64,000 bases of DNA. Origin: Echinarachnius parma (Eukaryota > Echinodermata > Echinoidea > Clypeasteroida > Echinarachniidae). Shown in pieces: positions 11,851 through 63,550 of this stretch. The position numbers were made by a program, and so were the translations under genes. The stretch is from positions 1-64,000 of the forward strand of contig JBAMJV010001384.1 in assembly GCA_037951105.1 (NCBI GenBank), read 5' to 3'. Positions within the stretch are counted from its first letter, which is position 1. The number at the start of each line of letters is the position of its first letter. The notes beneath the pieces were generated by a model. The model did not search any database, was not told the origin of the DNA, and worked only from the letters and a program-made list of their open reading frames with translations.

Positions 11851-13213
11851 ATTAATGTTGGTACTTCCCAGAAACCCTTCCAGTTGTATTTCACTCCACA
11901 GAGGGGTAAAAGGATCACCATAATCTTCATATACACGATTTAATGTATACCATTGTGATATTAGACTTACTGGACTTGTCTGCCTACCAAAAAGTTAAGT
12001 TACTTATGCGTATGGAGACATGCAAGACCATGACGACGATGAACTGATTTAGACCTACATGTAAATATCTTTGGTAGATATCGAAGTAGTCGTGATAAGT
12101 TTCCGGCATTTACTATAATAATTCTGTAATTCAGAACAAATTTGCGTTTGACGAATATTGTTGTCAGGAAGATTGTGTTCATTTAAAAGTACCAAAGTAT
12201 AATCATGATAATGTAGTTTTACAAAATATTATCCTAAGGAAAAATCGTCCTGAATATCATGATTAGTTATTACTTTTATGTTTTATGTTCTCTATGATTA
12301 ACTTCTTAACCACATATCGCCTCCTTGTCGCTCTCATGCAGAATAAATATACATTTTGTGGCAGAACAATGAACTCCTAGCCACTCGTCTTATTCAACTG
12401 CGCAAACAAACAAAAAGTTGTCGTCAACTTGAAATTTGTTCCAAGACCAATACCCCAAGCATGCATTTTTCATGACCACGGTGCAGCTTGCGGCAGTTAG
12501 CACCACATAACTCGTTTCCACGTCAATTCCACTTAGTCGTTTAAGGTCACAGAAGCACCAGGCGCATCGAGGTGTTAAAGTTTTGCTGTCCATAGTGTTT
12601 ACATTGTCCTATCAGTGTACTGGCGTATAGTGGGGCTCAAAAGGGGTAAATGTTGCCTTTGAGGGGGACAGTCTGAGCTAAAAAGAAATGTGGTTGATAT
12701 ATGCTTTCCGTCATTATATTAATTTCCCCACACAGTCATTGACAAGGTGGTATTAAGGGGGCAAATGAATACCGCAGACAGGGGTGCAATTATTATGTCC
12801 CCCCCCCCCCCCTCTTCCTTAGGATTCTGTCATGTAAGTGTTACGCCATATGACTCTGATTGACAGATTAGGAACATGGCATCCACTAAACACACACTTC
12901 CGACGTGACCGATTGTTTTGAATAGTTATTGGGCGTGAATTCATGTCACATGTGGTGATCTTGTACAAGATAAATAATTCTTACGGTATTCTAAATACCA
13001 TTAATAGGGAAAAGGACGGTATTCTAAATTATATTTTGGTTACATGAGCTTGTCTCCAAATATAACTAATTCCCATTTTTGTTTTGTTTTTATCGATTTA
13101 TATTTCTTTAGGTTAGAACCGAATGTCGTTCAATTTATTACTACATAATTATTTAACATCCTGATGGTGAAATTGATGTTTATTTTCTTCCCCCTCATTG
13201 TTCTTCTACACAG

Positions 13214-15685
13214 ACGAACCTGCGTGACACCGGTGACACGCTCTCTCGGCAGATGGCGTCGATGTACAGGAACTTCCAAAAGGTGAAGGAAGATGACCAG
13301 GTGAGTGATGAGGGCGACACCGGGGACAGCGGAGACGAGATGATGAGGGACAAGAGCTGCGTCGATACGGAGGACGACGTCAACCAAATGACAGACCTCG
13401 ATGCCGACGAGTCCAGCATCTCCTCCCGGAAGGGGCCGCTACCTCAGGGACAGCTGGCCAACCTCCAGCGCAGAAAAGCAGCGGGGAACATCGTCAACAA
13501 TAAAGGGAGGCCTAGAGGCCAGAACAATGTGCAAAGAGGTAAAAATATGAACTCAAGGGACCCCAACGAAAATGATGTTTCATCAGAAATCAGCACGACA
13601 AGAAATCGAGAGCTTCCGCAGAGTGGAATGGACGGGGACATTGATGATGATGAAGACACCCTGAGTGAAAGCGAGTGCAGCGGGAACTGCCTTTGTTGTT
13701 CATCTATCGCTTCTTACCAAGGCATCCCGTGGACGATCAGACGCCCAAGCTCAGCAGAGACGACGGATTATGAAAGCGACAGTTCGGAGCTCGACAGCGA
13801 CTATGAAGATGATCGATACCGCTCCAAGAGAGCACCCCTCCATGCTCGGCTCAGCCCATTCTTTCATCAAGACACCAGCCACTCCGACAGCAGTTCTCCC
13901 CTGGAAGAAGAAGCAAGGAACAATGGGAAGAACAACAGCCTTGTCAAGAGAATGAGTCCTCTTGGATGTGAAAGCCCCAGTCAAAGCGATGGTCTCCCTG
14001 AATCCAAAAAGGAAGAGAAGTCAGGGTCGCCTAAGAAAGGTTCTACCGGTGGCCCTCCCAAGACAGCCCCCAAACCAGGCCCCAAACCGGCTCCAAAGCC
14101 CGCACCTAAACCTCCTCCTAAACCCCCAGCAAGGTCACCTCAGCCAAAGTCCAGAGATGTGAAGCAATCGGGAAATGTTGAAAAGCCCATAAAGAAAGAC
14201 AATTTTAAACTGGAGATGGCTCCCGTTGGCAAAAAAGAAAAACCATCGAGGCAAGAGTCTAAGAAAGAGAAGGCGTCAAATCAAGAGGTGAGCTTATCTG
14301 AAGCCGTTGCATTAGGAGCTGTCGCCAGGGCAGACAAATCTGGAACAGGAACGACACCACCAAAGAAAAGCAATGAAGAGCACAACGAATCTAGCAAGCA
14401 CAAACCCAGGCATGTTTCAAAGACTGCTATAGTTTTGCTCGACCCCGAAGCTGAGTTCAAGGACGGGGATACCATAAAGAAGAGATCTAATATTCTCCCA
14501 GCACAGCAACCTATCGAAGTTCCCCTATCTTATGTCGATAAGCACGGGTGTATTACGTTAACCCCCGATCCGAAGTTGGCCCCAGAAGCGTACAAAGCGG
14601 GTAAGACCATCACGTTCAGAGTCAGAGCCGCCAGTGAGAGTCCTGCAACAAACCCAGATGGACCCTTAACCTTCACCCCTACTTATGGCACAAAACCAAC
14701 CGTGACGGTAACCAACAGCTCTACCGCCGACTCCCCACCTGTAAGCATAGCTGCAGAAGAAATTGGACACGAGCACCAGATTCAAGTCACCCCAGAAGGC
14801 ATTATCCGACTCAGTAAGAGGAAACCGGTTCCGATGCAAGTCTTCATGCCGCAATTTCAACAGCATCACCAACAGCAGCCAAGTTCCACGATTACTCTGA
14901 ACAGTGCTGGCGGGACTACAAATGGTGATCACTCCGCATGTCCCAGTTGTCACCGGAAGGTGCGCACCACCGCGTTCGTACAACCACAACAGCCTTCCAA
15001 TCTTGCGAGCAACGTACGGGTTATTCGCATGTCGCCTGGAATCACTGCTTCGCCCGTCTCGCCTCAGCCACAGCCGCAGCCACAGGGCCGTGTCCATGTC
15101 ATCCAGAGGCAAACATCTAGTGGCTCTAGTCACGGCTCTCCACCGACAGAAAGGCAGCAGATCATAGTCCATCAGGAACCCGGTCAGAGGCAGCACATCG
15201 TCATCAAGCGGCAGGAACCTGGGCAGATGAGCTACCAGGTACAGCCTGAGCAGCAATATCAGCAGGTGCATCAGCAGGTGGAATATCCACAGGATTACTA
15301 CCAGCAGCAGGGATACACGCAACACGTCGGGTACCCACAGCACCCACAGCAGCAGGTGTACCAACAAGGGGGCTACAGTCAGCAGGTGTACCCTCAGATC
15401 CGTGTGCAGCAGGGCGACGGGATCTCCATACCGATCCAGCCTGGCACCCAGACGATTCGGCACGTCATCCAGCAACCCAGCGGTCACATCATCCAACAGC
15501 CCGGTCACCATATCATCCAACAACCGAGCCCTCATATCATCCAACACCCGAGCCCTCACATCATCCAACAGCCAATGCAACAGACCAACCGTTCAGGAGG
15601 AGTGGCTACCATCAGGTTCGGAGACGGGGCACCGATTAAAGTCACACCTGGGCAAGGTATGAGGTTTGTCATCAACCCCAAGTGA
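13214..15685 (+). CDS. Large last coding exon of an unrecognised acidic, PK- and Q-rich protein
   Basis: The exon opens after a good acceptor (pyrimidines then ACACAG at 13208-13213) in phase 0 and stays open for 823 codons to TGA. The first methionine is at 13253, but the 13 codons before it (TNLRDTGDTLSRQ) continue the frame, so this is more likely a 3' exon than a complete gene. Counting from that Met: acidic Ser/Asp-rich 10-60; a CSGNCLCC cluster at about 142; a Tyr/Asp/Ser acidic patch at about 170-190; PK-rich polyproline 268-297, suitable for SH3 binding; lysine-rich 298-345; one CPSC at about 562; glutamine/tyrosine-rich 667-722; and five tandem units around HIIQQP at 737-776. The composition suggests a largely disordered scaffold or regulatory protein. 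I do not recognise the family. GC content is clearly higher than in the flanks, as expected for coding DNA. Confidence 0.8.
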   Translation, partial: TNLRDTGDTLSRQMASMYRNFQKVKEDDQVSDEGDTGDSGDEMMRDKSCVDTEDDVNQMTDLDADESSISSRKGPLPQGQLANLQRRKAAGNIVNNKGRPRGQNNVQRGKNMNSRDPNENDVSSEISTTRNRELPQSGMDGDIDDDEDTLSESECSGNCLCCSSIASYQGIPWTIRRPSSAETTDYESDSSELDSDYEDDRYRSKRAPLHARLSPFFHQDTSHSDSSSPLEEEARNNGKNNSLVKRMSPLGCESPSQSDGLPESKKEEKSGSPKKGSTGGPPKTAPKPGPKPAPKPAPKPPPKPPARSPQPKSRDVKQSGNVEKPIKKDNFKLEMAPVGKKEKPSRQESKKEKASNQEVSLSEAVALGAVARADKSGTGTTPPKKSNEEHNESSKHKPRHVSKTAIVLLDPEAEFKDGDTIKKRSNILPAQQPIEVPLSYVDKHGCITLTPDPKLAPEAYKAGKTITFRVRAASESPATNPDGPLTFTPTYGTKPTVTVTNSSTADSPPVSIAAEEIGHEHQIQVTPEGIIRLSKRKPVPMQVFMPQFQQHHQQQPSSTITLNSAGGTTNGDHSACPSCHRKVRTTAFVQPQQPSNLASNVRVIRMSPGITASPVSPQPQPQPQGRVHVIQRQTSSGSSHGSPPTERQQIIVHQEPGQRQHIVIKRQEPGQMSYQVQPEQQYQQVHQQVEYPQDYYQQQGYTQHVGYPQHPQQQVYQQGGYSQQVYPQIRVQQGDGISIPIQPGTQTIRHVIQQPSGHIIQQPGHHIIQQPSPHIIQHPSPHIIQQPMQQTNRSGGVATIRFGDGAPIKVTPGQGMRFVINPK

Positions 15686-31331: not shown

Positions 31332-34300
31332 TAACCAACCAATCGATTAACCAACCAATCAGTAGCAACAAATTAATTAATCAAATGTGATACCTTGGTG
31401 TCGCTATTTTAGATGGCGTTGCGGCTGATGCTGCTCCTCCACCTGACAATAATCTCTTTGGCATCACCTTCTTCTCTTGAGGCTGACATACGGGGGTACA
31501 TGGGGTGCCTGCTTTCCTCTTGCCTGAAAAAAATGAGGATGAAAAAGAAAGTAAAACAAAACTACCACAACTAGAACAAAACACAGCTAAAAACTAAGAC
31601 TGTAAGTTTAAGCTAATCTGTTACTAAATGTTGCCATATCAGGCTGCTTTGAGTTGACTCATGATGCTTAAATCAGTCTCCAATGAGGAGACTTTTGCTG
31701 TTTCGCGGCATGAATCACGATGCAACTTCCGATCTCTAGCTTTGCAAAACAAAAACACTAGAACTTTATAATCTTCCCTCAATAGCATTTCAAATCCCTC
31801 GGAGAGAAACATTTCATGATGTTCCCACCACCGTCAGTTAACATCTATATAACATTGAACAGGCAAATTACTACGTTGAATTGATGAATAATTACCAGGA
31901 GGGAGCTGAGATGGAGGTGTGGTCCTTTTTGGATTTCCATCCCCCTGAGCTGTGGTGGATCTAGCAGAAAAACTCATGGTTGCCTTCATAGGTTGGGCCT
32001 TGTTAGGACCTGGTCCCGTTCCCCCAGTGACTCTCTGGCCCGGCCTCGTGATTGAAGAGGGCTTAACAAGACTGAGTTTCTTGATGGGAGCTTTCAAGGC
32101 TGATGGCTTTTCTAAAATAAAAAACAATGGATTATTAATGAATGAGTTAATTAAGTTTTGGAATTGGGACTGAAAGTCATGGTTGCGTTCATGGGATGGG
32201 GCTTGTTGGGGGTCAGGCCTGTTTCCCCAGAGGCTCTCTGGCCTGGCCTAAAGTTTGATGAGGGCTTTATTAGACTGGGTCTATTGCTGGGGACTTTCAA
32301 AGCTGATCAATGACATTGAAGTATGAGTTAACAGGGCTTTGTAACTGGGATTTAAAGTTATTGTTGAGTTCGAAGATTGGGGCTTGTTAGGACCTGGGTC
32401 TGTTTCCCCAGTGATCTGCTGTCCTGACCTAGTGTTTGACGAGGGCTTGATAAGACTGGGCTTCTTGCTTAGGTGCTTTCATGGCTCATGGCTATTCTGT
32501 AATATAAAAGCATGAAGTATTGAAGTATGAGTTAACTGAGCTTTGTAACTGGGACTGAAAGACATTGTTGCATTCGAAGGTTGGGGCTTGTTAGGACCTA
32601 GGCCTCTTCCCCCAGTGGCCCCATGTCCTGCCTAATTATGGACTACATGGTTCCATTAGCCTGGCTTCTTCTGGGGCTATCAAGTTTCAAGTGTTGTTTT
32701 TTTAGACGAAATATAAGGGATAACAATGATTTGAGTAAACTTGTCAATTTAATTACTTTAGCTCAATGAAACATGTTCATGCTGATAGAAATAAATTCTC
32801 ATACAAGTTTATTGCAAAAACAAAGAAAAAATATCAACATAGTAGTGAAGGAAGCTTTACACAAATATTTCCCATTGAATGATTAAAATATTTATAAATG
32901 AACTAAAATCATTTTGACATGTAGTGTTGATGCAATATGTCCACTGTAAATGTCAACATAAAACTTTCAGAATGCAAAATAAATTCTTACATATTAAAAT
33001 GTACCTGTTTTAGTTTCTGCAACTGTGCTTTCTCTCGTAAATCCAGGCTTTTTCAGACCAGTTGATTTTGGACTCGACTATAAAAAGAAAGATGAGTTAT
33101 ACATGTTTTCAGCATAACAAACTGATGCAAGATGTATTAATTACATAACATCCAGTGAAATCAAAGAACGGACACACATCTTTAATACATAGCTAGGGAA
33201 AATTGTCAAGTATTAATGTACCTAACATTTAATCAAATTTGTATACCATCACATACAAGAAATTTAGACAGAGTATGAATGCCAGTTAATACAAAATAAA
33301 TTAAAAACTTAAGTGCACAACACTGAGTGAAAACAAAATCTACACTTATGAATATTTATTCCACTTATAATGACATTACAAGCAAATATGACTAAGTTAC
33401 CAATCTCTTCACGGCTGGTTTGCGTAGTCCGCTGCCATTTGACGTCGCCCCTATCGCCTGAGTGCCGTTGACCTTTGCCACAGCCAAGGGGGCAGGTCTA
33501 CGCAGAGATCTTCCCCTCATTGGAAGCCTCGATCCCCGGCCATTGGGCTGGGCTATCTGCTGAGGGGGCCGCGGCTGGTGCAATTTGCTAGTCGCCATCT
33601 CTCTCTTCTCAGCCACATGCATTTTGGATTCATCCGCCACTGATTTTGCAGTGGGGTACGGACTGGGCTGGTTGGCGGCGACGGTGTACGTGTTGCGGCG
33701 AGGGTCATTGCGCATGTCACGCTTCACCTGCCGCTTGAAGCACTGCACGTTGGACATCTCCCCAGAATGATCATCCCCTCTCTCTTCCAAAGTCTTTGGG
33801 ACTCCCTCGCTCGCTCCAAGTCCAACATTGCTCAAGTCTTCCTTGATGGATGCCATCCCCGATGCAAGTTCAGACTGTTTACCCTTCCTTCTCGTGACGG
33901 GGAGCTGCGAGTCCGATTGTGAGCCCGTGCTGGAGGAAGTCGAAGACCCACTTTGGGATGATTTCTGCTCCAGCTCAAGGGCAATAGACATGGCCTCCTT
34001 GAAGAGATGCGCGTACTGTTCAGCACTGGGTGGGCTCATGGGCTTCTCTTCGGCATGAGTAAGTTCTGCATTTGTGGCCACGCACTGCTCCTTGAAGCCC
34101 ACCGGTCCCATGAAAACCTCATCCTCATCCTCCTCTCTGTCCTCATCATCCTCTGCCAGTTCTATCAAGGGGGCTGGAGCAGCGCTGCTCATTTATGACA
34201 GGAATGAAGAAAAATAATTAAAATGTATTTTACTTTATAGCCATTTATTTTGTAACTGTCTTTGTTAGTAATATTTTCATGCTTGTTCTATGAAATCATA

Positions 34301-43548: not shown

Positions 43549-46500
43549 GTAAGTTCGTGGTGACCTAAATTTGTTTATAAAATGTATATGGAATTGAAGT
43601 CTTTTTTTTTGGTTAGAATTACTGGAAAGAGAATACATGTGGAAAACATTCTGAACATAACTCATCTCTCAAGTTGATTGGCTGATTGATTGAACATTGC
43701 TAGTACTTTGGCAGTCTTCACATCTAAGTTTTATAATATTTTGCCTTTTAAAAAAAATGATTAAAGTTACTTAGTACTGTGTTGAACGCAACAATTTGAG
43801 TTTTAGCCCAAGTATTTTTCAGACGAGTCCTGCATGGGTAAAGTAACTAATAACTCAAATTGATTGATTTTATTTTCTTATTCCTTTTCCTTTACAGCCC
43901 AGATAGCTACGAGGCTTCAAATAGAGGCAGACTTGGGATGATGATGACTATTCCTCTCTTCACTCGGCGTGAACGCAAGTTCCAGTACTTGTCCAGTCTC
44001 ATAGGCGGTCAGCTGTGGCGTCATGGCTGTAGACAAAGGGTTAGTATCATGTTTCCCGTATTAATGTTATGTCTACACTCAGTCCACTAGTGTTGTTTTG
44101 ATGCCATTAATTATTGTGGGAAATCAGAGCTTGCACTTGCCAGTGGCCTACGAGCCAATGGCCACCACAAATTTCATTTTGGCCACTAGAATCTCTTGTA
44201 TTGGCCACCAATGAATTAGGATCTATGGTGGGAGTCTATCTTGTGTGTCATTTTGGGCACCTAAAAGAAAAGCTTAACCCTAATCAGGCCGGGTTATTTT
44301 GGCTATGCTCTGGCTGGGGGGGGGGGTGGATTCCAACCCCCCTGAGATCTCGGCCGACAAACGCGCGGCCGCCACAAAATTTGGCACACAGATAGCTTGC
44401 GACATAATCTACAAGTTAAGTTAAATTCAGTTAAGTGAGAACATGTGAATGAATTTAGCTTTAACTAATACCCATTGAGGACTGAGCAGGAATTGTGGTC
44501 AACCAATATAAAATACTAACCGTCTTCAATTGGGTATACATCTCCTACCACTTTTAAATTTCTGCTTGTTTGGAAAAGAAGCCAACATTGTTGTGCGCTG
44601 AAATATAAATTTGATTTAATGCCAAACTCTCTATATCATTCTTGAGTATGATTAAGATCATTTGACAAATTTGCAGCTCCAAATTGTAAAATGTATAATT
44701 TGTATGCCTCCGCAACGAAGTAGCCGGAGGCATTATGTTTTCGGGTTGTCCGTCCGTCCGTACGTACGTACGTACATGTATGTATCTTGGGTGGCCAATG
44801 ATCTGATTAGATTTTGGGGTCATGAGGTCAAAGGTCAAAGGTCACAGAGCTCATTATATATGCAAAAATAGCTCGTGATCGCGTTATCTCAAGAAGGGAT
44901 TGACAGATTCTGACCAAACTTGGTACATGTATGTTCCTTGGAGAGCCAATGAACTGATTAGATTTTGGGGGTCATGAGGTCAAAGGTCACAGGGCTCATT
45001 ATATGTAAAAGTAGCTTGAGATTGGAAATCTCAAGAACTGAATATCAGATTTCAATCCAAATTGATACCTGAATGTATCTTAGGGAACAATGGTAGTCAT
45101 TAGATTTTGGGGTCATGAGGGCAAAGGTCAAGGTCACTGATTATGTGATACGTCAAGATCTAAAAGACAGAGTACCATCAAAATTGAGTTGACAGAATTA
45201 ATTCAGTGTATATGTTGATTTGGGCTAGATATAAATAAATTGCGTAATGGCGGAGGCATCATTTTCGACTGCGCGCAGTCGAAGATCCATCTAGTTTTAT
45301 TTTAATTTTCCCTCTCAACAGATTTTCCACGAGTTATATCGTCTTGGAGTCAGTCAAAGAAGACACGGATCGATGGATGCTGCCAGATGGCTCGAAGGTG
45401 AAACAACCAAGGGCCAGAGGGTGATGAAACCCAAATACCAGGTATGGTTGTCACCTTACCAAATTCATACAGAAAATAGTTACACATATAAATACATTTC
45501 ACTGCGTATGAAAGCAAATGCCTTCTGGGCCCTGTTGCAGAAAGAGTCGATTGTAAGAAAAGTGTAAGTCAGATCATGTGTTTTAAATGCGTAAATCTGA
45601 TCGGTTGAAACATGCACATTTTCTGATTTACCATTAATTGTGTAACTTACAATAGATTGTATCTCTTTCTGCAACGGGGCCCGTATGTATGTACGAGGTG
45701 AAATTACCAGCCATATAACAAAGATCTCACCCTTTTCACAATTTCTCTATGTGAAATGGACAGTAAATATTACCTTTGAAATCAATGTATTAGAGTGGAA
45801 GTTGTTAGTTGTGTCAAGATGGTATTGAAATACACAAGACTGTCTACATTTCACTACCATGGCTTTGTTAAACTTTCTTGCTTGGGAAATGATCTCCGTG
45901 TTACCTGTATTTTCTGTTATGTTGAAAGACTTGGTTACTTTCACTTCATCACTTTCATCAATGCTCTGTATCATTTCTCATTGAAACGATTTTATAACTA
46001 ACCCATTCAGGACTGGTCTCAGAAGTATGTTTAACCAAAGTAAACTTGTTTTGGATGTAAGGCTGTTGACGAGTCCCGGGTACCCGGGTCCCGCCGAAAA
46101 ATGTCGAGTCCCGGGCGCAAAAATCGATACTCGATATCCCGAAAAAAAGCAAAAAATTGATTTACGAATTTGCTGTATTTTATAAGATGATTTATTGTCA
46201 TAAATGCGCTGCATTTTTGTCACTTGAATGAACATGTTTCCCAGCGGCGTGACATGCCTATAGCGAAATCAACAAATTTATAAATTTCGGGTACCCGGGA
46301 CTCGCCCGAAAAATTATCGCGAGTCCCGGGTAGTAAATATACCCGAAATCGACAGCCTTATTTGGATGGCTTAAGAAAATTAAGTTCTGCAGCACTCTTC
46401 CCCATTAATTTGAGTTTCCTAATGTATTTTCTGTATCCTTTCTTACCATCACAGATTATGGATGAAGTTGAAGCCCTGCAGAATGGAGTGCTGCCCAGCG

Positions 46501-47660
46501 CAGAACGGTACGAGACGAGTGACGACGAGGGGAGTAGTGAGAGTGATGATGAAGAGAGCGAGGAGGAAGTGGAAGACTCCAGTGATGTCGACAGTGAAGA
46601 AGATCTGATGGAAGAAAGCGACGAGGAGGATGAGATAATGGCCAAGCCCGAGAGGGTGCGAGGTCGAGGCAAGAGAGGCCAGCACCAGGAAGTGATCGAG
46701 GAGGTCGTGATGGACGACAACTGGCAGAACGACGTCAGGGTCAGGAAGGGTACCTCTGATAACGTCATCTCGGAGATGAAGAAGATCGCCGAGCAGATGT
46801 CGGAGACGTCCGAGATGATGAAAACGTCAATCAAGCGGAAGAATAGAGGCAGAGAAGTTATCGCTGATGAGGTGCATGTGGTCTCTCAGGATAACAACCA
46901 GATTGTTGTCCAGGTTGGCAAGGATGGGATCCCAACGGGGATCCCAATCTCTCATGCTGGGATGCCCATCATGGTGTCCGGGCAAGATGGGACGGTGAAC
47001 ATCAACCAGGTGATGATGGGAGGGATACCCACGCAGATCGTCCAGCAGGAGGTGATAACCGACGATATGGACCCAGAGATGATGGCCGCTCAGCTCCTGC
47101 AGCACGTCCTACCCACAGAGATCATCACCTCCAGCCATAGCATTCCACAGGAAGTCGTCACCACGACGACAGTCCAGGCCGTGATCCAGGAGGGCATGCA
47201 GGAGGAGGTGGTATCCATTCAGGAGTCACAGCCTACCAGTGTTGCGGGACAGCAGACCATCGTCACCCAAAACGTGGTCCCGGAGGAGATGTTGCAGGAG
47301 CAAATCATCCAGGAGATCATTCCAGAGCATATCCTGCAGCAGGACGTCATCACAGAGACAGAGATGGTTGACCAGCATGGCCAGGTGGTGATGCAGGAAG
47401 AGGTGCAACAAGGGGAGATCACCACCCATGTCGTGCCTGCTGAGATCATCACCACCGATGAGGGCACTGGAGAGATGACGACGGTTGTTGTGACAACGGA
47501 AGTTGTGACAACGGATGAAGGGGAAACGCAGGTTGTGATGGTTTCCCAAGAGGAACAAGAACCGCAAACACCTAGCAAAAAGAGACCGGCAGACCCAGAA
47601 CGGGAACCAGAACAAGAAGGGAAGCGCAAGAGAAAGATCAAAGCACCATACTCCCCTTGA
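42914..47660 (+). CDS. Four-exon, 700-residue nuclear-type protein, family uncertain
   Basis: Exons 42914-43548, 43898-44039, 45322-45441 and 46455-47660 join in phase (2, 0, 0) to 2103 nt. ATG at 42914 has A at -3 and G at +4. Residues 1-60 are very basic (KSRAKSRQAKSRR); 110-259 form a globular part with LQKVVTYMRTFNHARALSAL and then GRLGMMMTIPLFTRRERKFQ, LWRHGCRQR, LYRLGVSQRRHGSMDAARWL; about 320-365 is strongly acidic; 370-660 is low-complexity Glu/Gln/Val/Thr-rich; the end has a nuclear-signal-like GKRKRKIK. The LYRLGVS segment recalls the conserved region next to DUF6589/KDZ-type transposase proteins of invertebrates, so a domesticated transposon domain is possible. That is inference, and I do not know its function. 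Confidence 0.8.
43898..44039 (+). CDS. Unrecognised 700-residue protein, exon 2
   Basis: 142 nt between TTTACAG and GTTAGT. Encodes NPDSYEASNRGRLGMMMTIP and on to GQLWRHGCRQR. Confidence 0.75.
44704..45296 (+). mobile_element. Dispersed element with GCCTCCGC / GCGGAGGC ends
   Basis: Starts ATGCCTCCGCAACGAAG with a nearby GCCGGAGGC and a GTCCGTCCGTACG run, contains three diverged blocks with GGGGTCATGAGG and CAAAGGTCA, and ends at GGCGGAGGCATCATTTTCGA. It fills the intron between exons 2 and 3 of the 700-residue gene. Similar gtccgtcc-containing repeats occur widely in marine invertebrates. No open frame. Confidence 0.65.
45322..45441 (+). CDS. Unrecognised 700-residue protein, exon 3
   Basis: 120 nt, phase 0 on both sides, between TCAACAG and GTATGG. 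Encodes IFHELYRLGVSQRRHGSMDA and ends MKPKYQ. Could be skipped without a frameshift. Confidence 0.78.
46058..46360. mobile_element. hAT-like MITE with perfect 8-bp target duplication
   Basis: Element ends TAAGGCTGTTGACGAGTCCC and the complement ending CGACAGCCTTA. Exactly the same 8 bp, TTTGGATG, lie on both sides (46050-46057, 46361-46368). An 8-bp duplication is the hallmark of hAT elements. Inside are repeated GAGTCCCGGG and CCCGGGTACCCGGG palindromes. It lies in the last intron of the 700-residue gene. Confidence 0.85.
46455..47660 (+). CDS. Unrecognised 700-residue protein, exon 4 (last)
   Basis: 1206 nt after ATCACAG to TGA. Acidic Ser/Asp/Glu block, then VV/TT/EE-rich repeats such as VVTTEVVTTDEGE, and a basic tail. 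AATAAA at 48178-48183 is a candidate polyadenylation signal. Confidence 0.8.
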   Translation: MMDEVEALQNGVLPSAERYETSDDEGSSESDDEESEEEVEDSSDVDSEEDLMEESDEEDEIMAKPERVRGRGKRGQHQEVIEEVVMDDNWQNDVRVRKGTSDNVISEMKKIAEQMSETSEMMKTSIKRKNRGREVIADEVHVVSQDNNQIVVQVGKDGIPTGIPISHAGMPIMVSGQDGTVNINQVMMGGIPTQIVQQEVITDDMDPEMMAAQLLQHVLPTEIITSSHSIPQEVVTTTTVQAVIQEGMQEEVVSIQESQPTSVAGQQTIVTQNVVPEEMLQEQIIQEIIPEHILQQDVITETEMVDQHGQVVMQEEVQQGEITTHVVPAEIITTDEGTGEMTTVVVTTEVVTTDEGETQVVMVSQEEQEPQTPSKKRPADPEREPEQEGKRKRKIKAPYSP

Positions 47661-54182: not shown

Positions 54183-56125
54183 TAATGTGCCACTTTTCAT
54201 ACTGGTAATATACTACTAATTTATAACTATAAACTATTCCTATCACTAGTTATATTGATTCCACTGAGGACTCAGAATTTACATGTATTCTAATATTTAT
54301 TGTTGATACATCTTCACAAGTGTCAAAGAGATTGCGTCGTCAAAGTCAGAACCACTCGGGCGGAAACGTACTTGAGCTCGCACGATGGTGCCTCCCTATC
54401 AACACTTTGTAAAGTGCCTACCATCTTTATGTCTTTACACTTGTCAGCCTTTATCAAAATAAAAAAATGATCACGTAGTTGCAACGGGATCTTTTGACAA
54501 GTTTGTTTTAAAAGCCAGCCTCCATATGTTGCACCTACAAATACAAAAAGTTACAGAATAATTGATTCAATGTTCATGATCCCAATCCCATATTCTGAAG
54601 CATCTTCATCTTGAATCGGTAAAAAATGGTTTTATCAGTTTTTGCATTCAAATTACCCTTCAAATATATTTTACCATGATGCCTAGCCTACAGTGAAACC
54701 TCATTATAACGAGCAACTCGGGTCCCATTGAATTTACTGTGTTATATCAGATATCTCATTGTATCAGAGCCTAAAAATAGTAAAATACATAGAACCTGGT
54801 ATGGAATTTCCTCGCTATGTCAGATATCTTGTTATAACTGAGCTCGTTATAAAGAGGTTCCACTGTATTACATTGACATGATTTTTTGTTCTACAAGTCT
54901 TTTCACTTGATCCTTTGAATGTCCCCCATTTCATTACACAAGAGAAAGTTCAGAGGTATATTAGTTCATTTTAAATGTGCTCAGTGGACAGAAAGGTAAT
55001 AATAATTTTAAAAACATATATTTCAACATTAATGAGATGAAATTTGAAAACCATCTTGATTGAATCGCTACCTGAAAACACATGCATGTTTAAGATATCA
55101 TGTTAGCTTTTAGTGGCACCCCGTTTATTGAAGTGATAAACACATTAATGTTAGTTGTAACTCTACCAAACATATACACATACTTAAATGGTGCTATTCA
55201 AAACATTAGTATTGTGAGGTATTAATATCTCAAAATAAGTGGAGAAAATTCATCGTAGAAAATAATTAAAACTGAAATATTCAACCGATACCTTATTGTG
55301 ATTAACTTTAACCTGTTCAGGACTGGTCCTGAAAATAAGTTTGGTTTTGGTCTACAGGCAATTTATGTTGCTCCAAAATCAAGTTGTCTTCAGTTGTACA
55401 GGAATAATGGTCAGTATAAATCACTACATAATTTTAAAGACGCTGCCACGTCGGTGAAATCAAAGAAAGTACGAAAAGTGAAATAAAACGGTGTGAAATC
55501 ATAGTTTTTAGCCATATCAAAAAGCAATACACCAAATGTCCAGACGCATGGCCAAGAAAATGACTGTATGTAAATTGAAAATATTTCTAATTTATGAACA
55601 ACCATTCTACATGAACAAACAAAAATAAAAGGGAATAGTACAACAACCACACATGATAATATCAAACTTGGGATAAGAAAACATTGGCAACATGAATTCA
55701 AGGAGGAAACAACTCACAAATTGAGAGCAGCATGCTGACAATGGCTACTTGGTCACTACTTGGTGCATGTAGAAGGATTGTAGAAAGATCATAATTACAT
55801 AAACATCTCAACATACTAATACAGTAAAGAGAGCACTTGTCCTGCACATTTTCCCTGTCCAAAGAGTCAAGATATTAATGGGGCGAGATGATCTGAGATT
55901 TGTGCTGGCCTGATTCTACGGTGGTCTCAAAACCATCAAAGAGATTTCTTACTTGGCTGATCATGAATAGTAACAAAAGGCACATGATACTAGAGCAGAA
56001 TACTCACTGCATTTAATACGGAATTTAAATTTAAATAGTCTGAATTCTTTCAGTGTATCATTTTATCGAATAGTGCGAAAAAAATATGAAATTTTGTAAT
56101 AAATAGAATCTCTTTATAAATATCA
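54183..56125. other. Downstream flank of the CRELD gene
   Basis: Contains the mariner-like element at 54691-54865 and otherwise no supported gene. Its right part should include the 3' UTR of the distal CRELD terminal exon; an ATTAAA on the minus strand near 56012 is a weak candidate signal. Confidence 0.4.
54691..54865 (-). mobile_element. TA-flanked CAGT MITE (Tigger/pogo-like), reverse copy
   Basis: Begins CAGTGAAACCTCATTATAAC and ends AAAGAGGTTCCACTG between TA dinucleotides. It corresponds in reverse to 24537-24713. Confidence 0.65.
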
Positions 56126-56469
56126 TCATAATTCTTCACGAGTGTCGGGAGTTGGTATTTCGTGGTTGAGTACATGTACAGTTTCCTCTGAAGAATCGTC
56201 TGGAGAGTGTTCCTGTAAACTCTTTGAACCATTTTGGTCAGAAACGTCCTTTAAATCACCAGGAGAGTTTGGAATCTCCCGACTATATTCTCGCTCGTCC
56301 AAGTTTGGGTTTGCATTTGGCCCATTTTCAACAGTGTCGGCACTATTAGCATTTCCCTCGACACCTATCCCTCCATCGGTCTCAGGAGCATCGTTCTCCC
56401 CTTCCGGAAGAGTGGCAGATTCCAATTCCCCCGATGATTCGTCAGACGCCTGGTCAGATTCATTGTTAG
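56126..56469 (-). CDS. CRELD distal alternative last exon (soluble form, REEL end)
   Basis: 344 nt after acceptor CCCTCAG, phase 1, completing a Ser codon. It is acidic and Ser/Asp/Glu-rich throughout (SDQASDESSGELESATLPEG) with no hydrophobic segment, and ends PDTREEL. REEL resembles KDEL-type ER retrieval signals (human CRELD2 ends REDL by recall). It replaces the membrane tail when the proximal exon is skipped. Confidence 0.75.
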
Positions 56470-59400
56470 CTGAGGGATGGCACGTGCACAGTAAAACAAA
56501 CAAAAAGAACAATAAAACTATGGGGTAATATAGATGGAAAGCACAAAACACATGAAAGAGTATAGATCAAAATCTACAAATTAATACTGCATATTAAAAT
56601 AAATATCAATCAAACACAAAAGAACACCAAAGGGTTAATATGTTTTGTCAGAATTTCACACATAAAAATGGAATATGTTTACCAACAAAACTGTAATTCA
56701 ACATTTAAACTGATTCATGCAAACATAAATACAGACTATAGCACTCTAATTTCAAACTATACTGTATAAATCATGGACAAAAATAGCAGGTATCACTGAA
56801 AGTACTCCACATGCACATATGGAAAGGGGGGGAAGTTTATCAATTGGTGTATTTTGGCCCAAACTTGCAATGAGAAGTGGAAGATGGATATTATATATAA
56901 ACTTGAAAATCCCATATGAATCTCCAAAGCAAATACAATCAGCCAAATACTACAGAATGAAGTCTTGGCATTAATTTTAAAAAAAATTGTCTAAAGTACT
57001 GAAGCTTCTGAACTACTGAACCATCTTATAACGTGGGGAAGTAGTTCCAAGTATATATTATATTCAAATACCAGTGATAAATTGTGACAAAAATGTCAAA
57101 AAAATTACAAAATGTACAATTGACAAAGTATAATGGAAGAATTACTTATTTATGCTAACATTCATGAATACAAAATTACATATATTAATGTATATAATAA
57201 AGCAAAATTACATATTAATAAATACAATTTCACATCATTCTACCAATTACAAAATTCTTCTAATGATTCTTCACATTTGTTTTTCTGCTGAATATATTTA
57301 TTACAACACGTCTATCAAAAACACATTTATTATTGCAGTATATCGAGAAAGTCCCAAGTCTGGATCCCACAATTGCACTTTATTTTTTGTTTTAATAATT
57401 GTTTTTTCAGTGCATTTCCAAGACCAAGATCAATCAGAAACATTAAAGGCCATCACAGAATATGAACATATCTTGGTGACACAATATGTGACCAGCTATA
57501 GCAAAACCCTGCACTTGTCGGTAACAATCAAAATGTAGATTTTCATACCATTAGAAAGGCCTCGTCATAAGCTTTCATTTGCTGCTTTGTTCTAACTAAT
57601 TGGTCAATAATTGAAGAAAAAAAAATTTGATTGAAAAGGTATGATTGTTTCAATTTTAGAATCATAAGTCTTTTACACACATTTTGTGAACTTAAAATGC
57701 CCATTTCTGCAAAACACGAATTACCGTACTGGGTTTTGCTATAGCTGGTCACATATCATAACTGACATTTGTTTACCTATACAATGGGACAATCAACATT
57801 TCGTTTAATTACATGTATAACATTGGTAACAGTTTTCTTTCATTATTTTGTGTCTATATGATGGATTTTAAAAATAGTATTGTATGTGTATGTTGGAAAA
57901 AAATATATGCATACATGATCTTCTCATGTCATATGATAATATTGATAATATTGACTATTAAACACCTTTACTAAATAAAACTAGACCCTTTAGTTTTCAT
58001 AAGAAAGTACACAAATTGATATGGACGGATGGGCAATTTTTCCAAACAATAGCTACATGATTTTTAACCTGTTCCCTTTGAGTTTCTGAGATCCCCATAG
58101 ACTTTGTACACAACCCACCTGGTTCCCGTAGTCAAGGGGTTAATTGAAAATGAGCTTATGTTGCCACAAAAGAAGATATGCTTTGCATAATTATGAGGGA
58201 ACATTTGCCTAAATATTCATGATTTCACATTACTTGGCCATTTAGACCCCCCCCCCCCCCCACCCCCCACCCCCAACTCGAATGTCTATGTGAATGGAAT
58301 TTGTAACATTTGTGACCGACCATAGCAAAACCCTGCACTTGTCTGTAAAAAATTAAAATGTAGATTTGCATACCATTATAAATGCTTTATCTCAAGTTTA
58401 ATTTGATGCTTTGTTCTAACAAATTGGTCAATTATTGGCAAAGATATGATTGTTTCAATGTTACAATCATAAGTCTTTTACACACATTATGTGAACTTAA
58501 AATGCCCTTTTCTTCAAAACATGAATTACCAACAAGTGCAGGGTTTTGCTATAGCCGGCACATTTGTCTGCAAATATATATACAGAAAATGTTAAATACA
58601 AAATAGCAAGAAATTATATTTCCTTTCATTATCATACCCTGGCTACCAACGTTAAATTTAAATCTCTTCTGTTTATAATTCCACATTCTCTTGTTTAAAC
58701 TTGTGTAAATATCACAGTCACAAAAGTCTATATCAAGAATACAAAACAGTATAGGCAAGCTTTTCATAAACAATAAACACAAATACTGTTGAATAAAACC
58801 ATGAAAATAATACAGTTATAGATGTAACTGAAATGGGTTTTCCATGACTAACTAGTACTGGGAAGAATTTAACTATATCAAAATGGAGGTTTTCACATTT
58901 GTCTTTCGAAATAAAATATATAGTACCATTTTCCTTACTGTTAATAATAAACCTGGATAGATATACCACTGCACAACCCTAGTATAAATGCTTCAAAATT
59001 ATAATATGAAACAAGTTACATACATATACATGATGTACATTACCTAACTCAAAAATTAAACTAGTATGTAGGTAAGAGCTGAAGAAAAAAACAATGTAAT
59101 ACATGTTTACGGTTTGCATGATTTTAGTATGTCTTTCCCACAGATAAAGTACACTTCACAATAAACTTGTATAATAACCTAGTTTAACATTTCTTCTAGT
59201 GGATTGAGAGAAATGTAAAGCATGGGTCCTACAAAAGTACAAAGAATATCTACCTGGGCCAAGTAACATAAAGAGTTACTATCAATTTATATGATCTATT
59301 GACTGATCATACAATTAATCGATTGATCATACAATTACTTGATCATGTGACAAATCATTATGGCATATCAATTGATCAAATGATAGAGCATTTGATAATA

Positions 59401-62400
59401 CAATTAATTGATTGTATGATCAATTAATCGATTGTACAATCAATTACTCCGCATATCCACTGATCGTACAATCAATTGATTGGTTTGTAACGGGGCCAAG
59501 ATTGCAAAGTCAATAAATAGAAAACTAGAGTTCGATGTGACTCGTGTCATGTGTCCATCGGGTACATGAACCTAGCTATATACCAGGCACCGACTCCTAC
59601 ACCGAAAAAAACGGCCATGATGGGGTTGCTTCGCGAGACCAGGACCGTCCCGATAAACATGAAGAAGTACAGGAGATAGACCAGGATCTCCTCTCTCAGG
59701 GTCATTTTTCGTTCGGGATCAAAGTCTGATTGCGATTGTGACATCTTACCTTTTACTGTGTGTTGAGAGAATATGAAGTGGAGTAAGGGTTGAGTGAGGG
59801 AATGGAGAAATATGAAGTGGGGAAATATAAAAATATGGAGTGTAGAAATAGGGATAGGAGGAATAATGGTGTGGAGAAATATTAGTTGGGATTTTTTTAT
59901 AGAGAGAAATATGGAGTAACGTGAGGGAGTGGTGAAATATGGAGAGAAGGAGTATGGATTGAATTGAGGGAGTTGAGAAATATGGATGGAGTGAAGTGAG
60001 GAGAAGAGGAACATGGAGTGGAGAAATATGGATGGAGTGAGGGAGCGGAGAAATATAGAGTGGAGGAATATGGGGTGGAGCGAGAAGAGAAAATATGGAA
60101 GGAGTGAGGGAGCAGGGAAATATGGAGTGAAGAAATATGAAGTGGAGGAGTATGGTGTGGAGTGAGGGAGTTAAGAATAAGGATTGGAGTGAGGGAGTTG
60201 AGTTTATGGAATTGAGCAAGGAAAAAGACATGTATGTTGGGCAAATGAATAGGCAGAACAAATAGGGGAGAAGAAAATGGAAGGGAGAAACAAAACATAA
60301 AATGAAATCAACAAATTGTGCACATAAAACAAATGATATACATAACTCAGTTCATAAAATTGTATTCCATATTAACAAAAAGTGTTTTTTTCACATATGG
60401 AAATAATGATAATAATAATAACGGTTATTTATATAGCGCTATTCCCGTGGGGATCATGAAAGAAAATTAAAGAGCAATTTTGTAACATGTTCCTACAAAT
60501 GTATTACATACTATCATTGAGAATACTGACCAGTATGAACCTCATGACTTTGCTCTGTTTCCTGGCAACCTGAAACCTTGCCCAAAGTTTGCCCTACATG
60601 GCAACCAAATAATAATGTATTCATGACAAACTATAAATATATAATTTAAATCATTTCAAACAGGTTATTCAGATCGAAACAGAATGAGCATGATAGTATA
60701 AAACTAGCGGGGTATCATGAATATGGGCTCTGGGGAGGGGTGCATAAAACTTTGAGTTGCGATCAATGGAACTCTGCAATCAAACGCATTACTGCAATTG
60801 AATGCAACTTATACAGGACATAGAGAGACTACGGGACTTAGGGAGACTTAGAGAGAATCACATGCAATCACTTTAATAGTGAGAATCACATGCAATCTTG
60901 CTTTTGATTTCAAAGATAACTTTGCACTTGCTCAAGGATCAAAAGCAAAGCTGCATTTGATATCCAATGCAATTTGTATGCAATGGATAAATCTAGTAAC
61001 TTTATTGACATACATGTGCAAAAATTGATGACTGCATGGTTGATAAAAAATGTATACCTTTGTGATGTGATATTTCCAAGAGCAATGTGTGAAAATTTAA
61101 TTGGTGCGGATGATTTGTTAGAGTTGCTTTTTAATCACTAATCTTTAATAATGCAACACTGAACTGAGCTCTACTTACACAATTCCTTGTCCATGCATTC
61201 CCCTCCGACTCTCTCGTAGCCCTCCGAACAGTCGCAGTAGTAGCTCCCCGGGACGTTGTGGCAGCTCATGTGTTCTGTCTTGCATATATCCTCCTGCTCA
61301 CACTCGTCGATATCTGGGGGGAACAAGTCCATCAAAACTTACAGTTCGCTCAAAATAAAAAAAATATATAATCATGTTTCGTTTTTATTTTAACAAGCCC
61401 ATAAAAGGATAGTACAATTTTCTGAGGCAATGAAAACTAAACTGTAATATTTTTTAATGCGATTTTAAAGAGAAAATAATCTTAGTATTTCAAAATAGAT
61501 TCAGAAACAGCCGAAATATTCATAAATATATCAAATTGGAATAAAATGTTTCTTTTTTAATTCTAACAAGCCCTGAAAGAGCTGGTACAGTTTTTTTGAT
61601 GTAATGGAAAACTAAGTGTAATATTTAAAGGGTACCACCACCCAAAAATAATATTCTTATCAATGACAGGTAACATCTTTAGTAGTCCATTCCATCAACA
61701 AGTTCAGAAAAATATGTTTCCAGAAAAAAGAAAAAAAATTGGAAAACGCATAACCATACTACAACATGTGTATATGGGTCTGCATGTACGAAGACTACCT
61801 TTGTCCAGAGTGAACGAATCGTCCGGGATTCTATTGTCTCCAAACGTACGCGTGAATAGAATTGGCGCACTCACAAATGTTTGGGGAGTACGGAACCAGG
61901 AAATAATAGTGGTTCCGTAAGTAGTGGTAATGAATTGCATTGTTTATGGATTACACAACCCTTTGCAAAATGTTGGGTATGATCTATTTGATATCACAAA
62001 AGGGTACCAAAACTTATAATGCTGTGTTGTTCTTTGCCTGGTGGTCCCCTTTAAACAATCTGTGATTTTCAAGACAAAATAAACTTAGTTTGATCAAAAT
62101 AGGCTCAGAAACAGCTGAAATATTCATAAACATATCCGATATAAATGGTGGGCCCCACATTGATTTGATTATTCAAAAAATATTTAGAATGCGATTAAAG
62201 CCTACACACTTTTGAAAAAATACCAATGTGGCTTTTAAATTGTGTTTTGATGATCTCTCTATTGAATCACTATTTTAACCAAACATCAAATTCACAATTT
62301 TTAGTGAGGAATGGTTGAAACTTTCAGGTGTTACATTGCTAGGATAGAACTCAACATCATCACATCATTCCTTGCCAATAACATAATGATTTCACTTGAT

Positions 62401-63550
62401 TTCCAATTGTTTTATCGTTCATGTGAAGTATCCAAATTTGGATACTTTTGACTACATTCAAAAAGCCATCCGGAATGCTTTCAAAATTCAATCTTAAATA
62501 TCTCCCTCATTATGGAGACATTTAAATAATCAAAACCCATTTGATTCTTCTGTTACCAAAAGCCAAACAAAAAGGAACAAGAGAAGTGCGAAAGCTCAAG
62601 TGAATTAAAATGGTTGAATTTTTGACAAAGTTAATAGATCACTTTAACTGGAAAGAGTCTTGTTATACGTACCACCACAGCCATCTTCCCTCATCACGTT
62701 GCCTGTCTTGCACTTAACGCATTTGTCCTTGCCAGGCCCCAAGCAACGGTCGCACAATACGTCACATTTTGAACACTTGTACGACCCTTCTGTGTTCTCG
62801 CAGAATTCATCGTCTTCGCACGTCAAGTCTCCAGCGTTGCACTCATCAACATCTAAAGGAAGAAATAAGAATAACACGAGATCCATTTCAGTGCTTGTTT
62901 TTTCAAAGAGTTTGTGCTAACAACGAAACATTAAGCTGGTCACGCAATTGGTCTTATTTTGATCCCTCTCTTGTGAGTTCCTGTGATATGTTTTGGAAGA
63001 ATTTATCTGCCCAAGTTGGGTCTCCAGATTTGCAATAATTTTTCATAATTCTCTACGACTGAGTAATCATAAATACAAATACAAACATACAATGATGTTT
63101 CAAGGAATGATGAAGTTTGGCATGATACCTTTTCATTGTTGTTTATTGATTGTTTGCAGGGATGTTCGTTAACTTGCTTGTTTGTGTAAACTTAAATGTT
63201 TTTGTCTTTTTGCTTTCGAATTTTGCTTTATTTGATTTTTTCTTGTTTGTTTATTTGCTTCATTTTGTTTGTAAAATGTATGTTTTTTGTTTAATAATTG
63301 TTCAATTATTGTTTGTTTGTTTAGTTTTTGGTTCTTTGTTTGTTAAATTGTCTCACTGTTTGTTTGATTGTATGTTTGTAATTTTTGTTTGTTTTTGTTT
63401 GTTTGTGTGTTTGTGTGTTTGTTTGTCTGTTTGTTTGGTTATTCTTACCTTGACATCCCAGCTCATCATCCCACAGCCAGCCTGCCTTACATTTCTTGCA
63501 TCCCTTGGGTCCCAGGGCTGTACACAATGCTGTGCATGATTTATGGCATG
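56126..63550 (-). CDS. CRELD family gene, 3' portion with two alternative last exons
   Basis: Internal exons 63550-63449, 62852-62673 and 61313-61179, all in phase 1, are followed by either 59755-59547 or 56469-56126, both phase-compatible. Domains in order: Cys-rich ACHKSCTALCTALGPKGCKK with GWLWDDELGCQ; DVDEC EGF unit; furin-like CDVLCDRCLGPGKDKC; then a calcium-type EGF (DIDEC to NVPGSYYCDCSEGY). This order and the GW...C-DVDEC linkage are those of CRELD1/CRELD2. The N-terminal half (CXXC and the WE domain) is beyond the right edge. CRELD proteins act in the ER on folding and receptor maturation. The proximal last exon gives two membrane helices; the distal gives an acidic soluble tail ending REEL. 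Confidence 0.85.
57485..57757. mobile_element. Inverted-repeat MITE, copy 1, in CRELD intron
   Basis: Begins TATGTGACCAGCTATAGCAA and ends with the reverse complement (TTTTGCTATAGCTGGTCACATA). A related copy lies at 58308-58565. Confidence 0.75.
58308..58565. mobile_element. Inverted-repeat MITE, copy 2, in CRELD intron
   Basis: Starts ATTTGTGACCGACCATAGCA and ends GGTTTTGCTATAGCCGGCACA, with the same AACCCTGCACTTGTC inner block as copy 1. A C run of about 16 lies 60 bp upstream. Confidence 0.7.
59284..59480. repeat. Cluster of TGATCA / ATCGATT palindromes
   Basis: About 200 bp in which TGATCA, CAATTGATTG, TTAATCGATTG and GTACAATCAATT recur on both strands. It lies just downstream of the CRELD proximal last exon, possibly in its 3' UTR. 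Probably a degenerate tandem or foldback repeat. Confidence 0.5.
59547..59755 (-). CDS. CRELD proximal alternative last exon (membrane form)
   Basis: Acceptor CACACAG with two leftover bases completes the T left by the cbEGF exon. It reads KGKMSQSQSDFDPERKMTLR, then two hydrophobic helices (EEILVYLLYFFMFIGTVLV; SNPIMAVFFGVGVGAWYIA) and stops after MYPMDT. Two closely spaced helices match the CRELD1 C-terminus. An alternative AG 5 nt downstream is out of phase by that count, but the one after AAAAG is phase-compatible, so the first residues are uncertain. Confidence 0.75.
59760..60235 (+). repeat. Purine-rich tandem tract (GGAGTGAGGGAG, GAAATATGGAG)
   Basis: About 475 bp of imperfect 12-16 bp purine-rich units directly upstream, in the transcriptional sense, of the CRELD membrane-form exon. 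On the transcribed minus strand it is pyrimidine-rich, so it may act as an extended polypyrimidine tract. Long Ser/Phe/Pro/Ile frames in it are artefacts. Confidence 0.8.
61179..61313 (-). CDS. CRELD internal exon (calcium-binding EGF)
   Basis: 135 nt, phase 1 on both sides, acceptor CCCCCAG and donor GTAAGT. Encodes DIDECEQEDICKTEHMSCHN then VPGSYYCDCSEGY. The DIDEC start and N before the VPGSYYC segment fit the cbEGF consensus. This exon is the last one shared by the two C-terminal forms. Confidence 0.85.
61625..62054 (+). mobile_element. TTAA-bounded MITE, copy 3, in CRELD intron
   Basis: Starts TTAAAGGGTACCACCACC and ends TGGTGGTCCCCTTTAA, with the interior of the copy at 18267-18714. 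Confidence 0.8.
62673..62852 (-). CDS. CRELD internal exon (EGF plus furin-like)
   Basis: 180 nt, phase 1 on both sides, acceptor CCTTTAG and donor GTACGT. Encodes DVDECNAGDLTCEDDEFCEN, TEGSYKCSKC, then CDRCLGPGKDKCVKC and ends REDGCGG/D. Confidence 0.85.
63160..63440 (+). repeat. TTTG-rich simple repeat
   Basis: Imperfect TTTG/GTTT units over about 280 bp in the CRELD intron. The frames of Phe, Val, Leu and Cys here are artefacts of the repeat. Confidence 0.85.
63449..63550 (-). CDS. CRELD internal exon (Cys-rich / furin-like)
   Basis: 102 nt, phase 1 on both sides, acceptor TTGTACAG and donor GTAAGA. Encodes CHKSCTALCTALGPKGCKKC then KAGWLWDDELGCQ. Confidence 0.82.

Follow-up and report, generated by a model that had tools for sequence, protein, structure and literature searches.

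A sand dollar CRELD locus with two candidate last exons, predicted to encode membrane and soluble endoplasmic reticulum forms

Described CRELD systems and the sand dollar locus

The production of a membrane and a soluble CRELD protein from one gene has been described in Caenorhabditis elegans, where crld-1 is the only CRELD gene and its alternative last exons, 9a and 9b, give a form that carries two transmembrane domains (CRLD-1A) and a form that ends in KDEL (CRLD-1B); a CXXC in the N-terminal WE domain is conserved (excerpts of PMC6245729). The same excerpts give two CRELD genes for vertebrates and likely one for Drosophila, and the Drosophila Creld isoforms PA and PB are described as having the alternative-last-exon arrangement of the worm (excerpts of PMC12448699). 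Vertebrate CRELD2 is without a transmembrane domain and ends in (R/H)EDL, a signal for the endoplasmic reticulum (ER) (excerpts of PMC10018036). The locus considered here lies on the minus strand of contig JBAMJV010001384.1 of the sand dollar Echinarachnius parma (assembly GCA_037951105.1), a contig of 100,220 bases in a draft genome of 1.20 Gb and 14,790 contigs, whose first 64,000 bases constitute the window. A preliminary description of the window had proposed that one CRELD locus encodes both a membrane-anchored and an ER-retained soluble form through alternative last exons, and had cited the membrane and soluble isoforms of Caenorhabditis crld-1, a comparison that was correct and, with the Drosophila case added, understated.

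The locus is very probably a single CRELD gene in which ten shared exons are followed by two alternative last exons, giving membrane and soluble ER forms. Like C. elegans crld-1, as presented in the excerpts above, it combines one gene, alternative last exons, a two-transmembrane and a KDEL-type form and a CXXC in the WE domain, although the soluble tail is of 114 residues and ends in REEL here, the worm tail having 25 residues and the ending KDEL, and the worm forms were shown by transcripts and mutants, whereas those of the sand dollar are predicted from the genome sequence. The likeness to Drosophila Creld is drawn from its published description and joins different phyla. Among the vertebrate proteins, as far as the excerpts describe them, CRELD1 shares the WE domain, the EGF-like domains and two C-terminal membrane helices with the predicted membrane form, and CRELD2 shares the absence of a transmembrane domain and the presence of an ER signal with the predicted soluble form; in vertebrates, however, each has a separate gene, with the other form encoded elsewhere, and the CRELD2 ending is EDL rather than EEL. 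The one-gene, two-ending arrangement is already known in worm and fly, and what is new is the non-vertebrate deuterostome branch. Among the top-ranked records of the open-access literature, none dealt with the isoforms of CRELD in echinoderms or in other deuterostomes outside the vertebrates, and the main texts of PMC6245729 and PMC12448699 do not mention sea urchin, ascidian, deuterostome, ancestral or duplication.

A complete CRELD gene was readable on the minus strand; its exons 1–7 lie on the same contig, beyond the end of the window. These seven were located through CRELD-like motifs, and their edges were set by eye for GT-AG junctions and frame, which placed exons 1 to 7 of the joined model at contig positions 71016-70867, 69709-69627, 68543-68489, 67965-67857, 66216-66178, 65622-65573 and 64624-64498, respectively. 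Exon 8 (63449..63550), which is Cys-rich, is preceded by TTGTACAG, is followed by the donor GTAAGA and joins in frame, and exon 9 (62673..62852) carries DVDEC...NTEGSYKC and a Cys-rich repeat; both are common to the two forms and run from phase 1 to phase 1. Exon 10 (61179..61313), the shared calcium-binding EGF exon at which the gene branches, is flanked by CAG and GTAAGT and is in phase 1 at both ends, leaving one spare base; reading and translation confirmed the coordinates and phase first given for it. In the full twelve-exon model all junctions are GT-AG and the joined translation keeps its frame, with predicted lengths of 412 residues via exon 11 and 457 residues via exon 12.

A Pfam scan of the joined exons (minus the first six residues and with some exon ends as first read) found the DUF3456/WE domain (PF11938; 4.2e-8, 34.2 bits against a cut-off of 21.1) and EGF_CA (PF07645; 2.3e-11, above its cut-off, two matched stretches), while the matches of the remaining EGF models were below their cut-offs. 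The CXXC of the WE domain is CDAC (residues 38-41), and the methionine at 71016 is followed by a hydrophobic run that, read by eye, is signal-peptide-like. With both domain models above their cut-offs and the CXXC present, the predicted protein identifies the locus as a CRELD gene, which bears out the original assignment. A comparison with PDB sequences yielded 10 hits (E up to 0.01), every one a general EGF-domain protein and none a CRELD, and a scan of viral contigs for CRELD relatives gave three pattern matches, none of which was confirmed. The ER stress response element (ERSE) is a promoter element present in vertebrate CRELD2. An exact match to it (CCAAT-N9-CCACG) was absent from the contig, and four copies with one mismatch were found there, the nearest 2.0 kb upstream of the CRELD start codon. 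By eye, the end of exon 1 and its donor are seen about six times in tandem (the original included) over contig 70270-71016, followed by two degraded partial exon copies; the tandem copies could give rise to exon-1 variants or be the relic of a local duplication.

The two candidate last exons

Exon 11 (59547..59755, minus strand) would be the terminal exon of the membrane form, with 69 residues that include two helices and end at a stop. It is preceded by ACACACAG, completes the phase-1 codon of exon 10 and keeps its frame open to the stop. Two hydrophobic stretches were found, with 19-residue Kyte-Doolittle maxima of 2.06 and 1.65, and a single-sequence AlphaFold2 model of 68 of its residues placed helices at 19-42 and 44-63, with a mean predicted local distance difference test score (pLDDT) of 77.9, a predicted template modelling score (pTM) of 0.51 and values by ten-residue block of 52, 63, 89, 93, 92, 90 and 66. 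Both the hydropathy and the model thus agree with the two membrane helices first proposed for this exon. Pyrimidine-rich tandem repeats (gene strand) at 59926-60197, in the intron just upstream, may influence the recognition of exon 11. When the genome was searched with exons 10 and 11 joined, 28 matches at E up to 0.001 were obtained among the best 150 of 1,098 candidates, of which the two strong ones were the CRELD exons themselves; within the same set, the other 26, with 29-56 percent identity from the start of the EGF exon onward, ended by query residue 89, and no second copy of the exon 11 helices was found.

Exon 12 (56126..56469, minus strand) would be the terminal exon of the soluble form. 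It is preceded by TCCCTCAG, continues the phase-1 frame of exon 10 to a stop and encodes an acidic tail of 114 residues ending in REEL, with 30 aspartate or glutamate residues, 5 lysine or arginine residues and no hydrophobic stretch; the reading of an in-phase acidic tail thus holds. REEL also serves as the ER signal of P3H3 and of POGLUT3; for the latter, one assay with two KDEL receptors gave about half the binding signal seen with KDEL (excerpts of PMC7803782 and PMC8263409). An ER-type tail ([KRHQSA][DENQ]EL before a stop) was found at one of the 7,426 stops in the window and, over the whole contig, at one of the 8,721 stops that follow four open codons; in each case the stop is that of exon 12. 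Splice sites were scored with approximate position weights. With these, the acceptor at 56469 scored 4.01, which places it at the 97.5th percentile among the AG sites of that contig strand, and two other acceptors would keep the frame of the tail, one at 56400 (score 3.32) and one at 56517 (score 1.07), the latter no lower in score than the acceptor of exon 11 and putting the pyrimidine tract into translation; the site at 56469 is the best of the three, not the sole option. A genome search with exon 12 returned the exon itself and one match of E 5.96 (all four candidates scored).

In the proposed mechanism, the ten shared exons would supply a signal-peptide-like start, the WE/DUF3456 domain with its CXXC and the EGF-like domains. 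If exon 10 is spliced to exon 11 and the transcript is polyadenylated ahead of exon 12, a 412-residue ER-membrane protein held by a two-helix anchor would result; if exon 11 is skipped and exon 10 is spliced to exon 12, the product would be a soluble protein of 457 residues, returned to the ER by the KDEL receptor through REEL. We infer that both junctions, 61179-59755 and 61179-56469, are used. From what is described for the C. elegans and vertebrate CRELD proteins, both forms would presumably assist folding in the manner of disulphide isomerases, the first at the membrane and the second within the lumen. Polyadenylation-type hexamers were found by motif scan both between exons 11 and 12 and after exon 12. 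A cluster at 57297..57396 on the minus strand (ATTAAA at 57396; AATAAA at 57384, 57331 and 57302) is a candidate for the 3' end of the membrane transcript, single ATTAAA hexamers also lie at 58402 and 57809, and an ATTAAA at 56012..56017, about 110 bases past the stop and on the same strand, is a candidate signal for the soluble transcript.

The coding character of the last exons was evaluated by CpG content and by a frame model. The observed-to-expected CpG ratio was 0.92 for exon 11 and 0.85 for exon 12, similar to exons 9 (1.10) and 10 (0.90), while the neighbouring introns gave 0.31 and 0.33 and the downstream sequence 0.51; the stretch between exons 11 and 12 (ratio 0.33, GC content 0.31) is intron-like as a whole. 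The frame model used position-specific dinucleotides, was trained on 2,112 bases (the CRELD exons and one long open reading frame (ORF) of the contig) and, with one piece left out at a time, chose the right frame for 8 of 11 CRELD exon pieces. It favoured the frame of exon 9 by 33.6 bits over the next best and, without training on exon 12, preferred that of exon 12 to the best of the other five by 26 bits, with overlapping parts of the exon giving +16.2, +14.1, +10.4, -2.5 and -3.4 bits. Chance was assessed with 1,000 first-order Markov sequences of the length of the real region. In-phase continuations behind an acceptor-like site reached at least 69 residues in 315 of the 1,000 and at least 114 in 17, so that an open in-phase continuation alone is weak evidence; an ER-type tail occurred in none of the 1,000 simulated sequences. 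The real region held 11 in-phase candidates of at least 25 residues, namely exon 11, two starts of the REEL tail and eight others, and the acceptor at 56469 failed the crude pyrimidine filter of this simulation.

Alternative explanations and a possible composite switch

Several observations weigh against two working last exons. CpG content is an imperfect mark of exons, with a ratio of 0.00 for exon 8; the frame of exon 11 was not picked by the frame model (-1.7 bits), this exon being among the three missed, and its acceptor stands at just the 90th percentile of AG sites (score 1.0). The frame model leaves the last ~160 bases of exon 12 unassigned to the reported frame, the opposite strand, too, has an open frame of 141 codons across that exon, and exon 12 was read in a single species. 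Both mRNAs and both proteins are predicted from genome sequence, and this would suit the improbable case that only one form is made and that the other terminal exon is a relic; nevertheless, both exons have open frames, matching phase, acceptors and a CpG content unlike that of introns, an ER signal forms the exact end of the tail and the helices are intact in the model. It is highly improbable that the REEL exon is part of another transcript of the same strand or a gene of its own: its distance of 4.7 kb from exon 10, 3.1 kb beyond exon 11, would allow this, but its frame of 146 codons holds no methionine, which means that exon 12 needs an upstream exon and excludes a stand-alone gene with its own ATG, the stretch between the terminal exons is intron-like, and the exon would join exon 10 in phase and ends as a CRELD protein should. 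A separate CRELD2-like gene, missed by the assembly or by the searches, is also very improbable. The draft state of the genome in 14,790 contigs and the scoring of the best 150 of 1,098 and of 198 candidates leave some room for it. A query of 230 residues (exons 2 and 4-9) gave 122 matches at E up to 10 among the best 150 of those 198 candidates; in that set, seven were exons of the CRELD gene, the best match off the contig (E 0.0014) covered the EGF part only, and none off the contig started before query residue 51. The DUF3456 model had 11 hits in the genome (E up to 10), and at the CRELD locus it caught just one known exon, below the cut-off (18.2 bits), which makes it a weak test for a second gene. 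The other ten matches lie on contigs C2148, C179 and C11838; the idea that a second CRELD is hidden among them was rejected, as eight of the ten have, by eye, canopy-like motifs and are taken to be canopy proteins; the other two matches came without a locus. With off-contig matches confined to EGF sequence and the other DUF3456 loci read as canopy, no second CRELD gene was found in the draft genome by these searches of best-scoring candidates, in agreement with the proposal that one locus holds both endings. Two of the canopy-like loci, C2148:188888-199053 and C179:47709-54340, are very similar and are either assembly haplotype copies or a recent duplication.

A different route to the same two forms would be a composite switch, in which exon 10 is joined first to the acceptor of exon 11 and then, from a donor six bases further on, to exon 12. 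The six bases TAAAAG between that acceptor and the internal donor AAG|GTAAGA (59750..59755, minus strand) would form a phase-keeping micro-exon that stays in the soluble mRNA, and the two-step splicing would compete with polyadenylation downstream of exon 11. This switch is considered rather unlikely. In its favour, the internal donor stands at the 99.8th percentile of GT sites, equals the exon 8 donor in score and exceeds that of exon 10 (TGT|GTAAGT), which is weak on the exon side and stands at the 92nd percentile. The motif [AC]AGGTAAG occurs 8 times in 94 kb over both strands, with about 0.0004 expected per 10 bases, and the gene strand has six of these copies, among them two CRELD donors and the internal donor of exon 11; translation also showed that inclusion of TAAAAG keeps the frame. 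On the other hand, the donor was noticed post hoc, the same bases simply code Lys-Gly-Lys in the membrane form, and exons of six bases are rarely recognised by splicing; the internal donor may be due to chance or may simply be coding sequence. The proposed switch can be likened to that of immunoglobulin mu, in which splicing and polyadenylation compete in the choice between forms, with the order reversed in CRELD, where the membrane form is proximal and the soluble form distal. That, in the ancestral one-gene state, such a reversed switch sets the balance between membrane-bound and luminal folding factor is, if anything, slightly more doubtful. Direct joining of exon 10 to either last exon is the explanation retained for the two forms.

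Host, surrounding sequence and significance

The preliminary description had placed the DNA in a deuterostome, and two genes of the assembly fit an echinoderm near the sea urchins. A tektin exon is identical at 130 of 139 residues to chain 8snb_8J (275.8 bits, compared with 143.6 for the next chain), and 8SNB is a sea urchin doublet (excerpts of PMC10973386). COX1 (contig C14600) has 14 TGA codons in frame and, aligned with the best PDB chain, one AAA at Asn, four AGA at Ser, Ala, Gly and Val, and 18 ATA codons, of which 12 are at Ile, 3 at Leu, 2 at Met and 1 at Val. This codon use fits NCBI table 9, the code of echinoderms and flatworms, the AAA part being represented by one codon.

Elsewhere in the window, a minus-strand ORF at 33395-34192 matched the Pfam model GTSE1_N above its cut-off (4.6e-12), and two coding-like frames on the plus strand, at 13157-15682 (842 codons) and 46284-47657 (458 codons), are of low complexity by eye and had no significant Pfam match. 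Rfam and tRNA scans of the window returned nothing. Upstream of CRELD, a reverse-transcriptase-like retroelement ORF (contig 74711-76747) and, in a gene further upstream on the minus strand, a PDZ-like exon frame (contig 92121-92282) were recognised by eye.

The simplest reading of the comparison is that one ancestral gene made both isoforms and the vertebrate pair shared them out, because nematode, fly and echinoderm would share the one-gene state. Use of both junctions would mean that a nematode, a fly and a non-vertebrate deuterostome all have a single gene with two endings, a state that would then likely be ancestral to bilaterians, and vertebrate CRELD1 and CRELD2 would become a clear case of duplicates that each kept one splice form. 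Variants of human CRELD1 cause disease, and the functions of the isoforms before the split would help to read the division of work between human CRELD1 and CRELD2.

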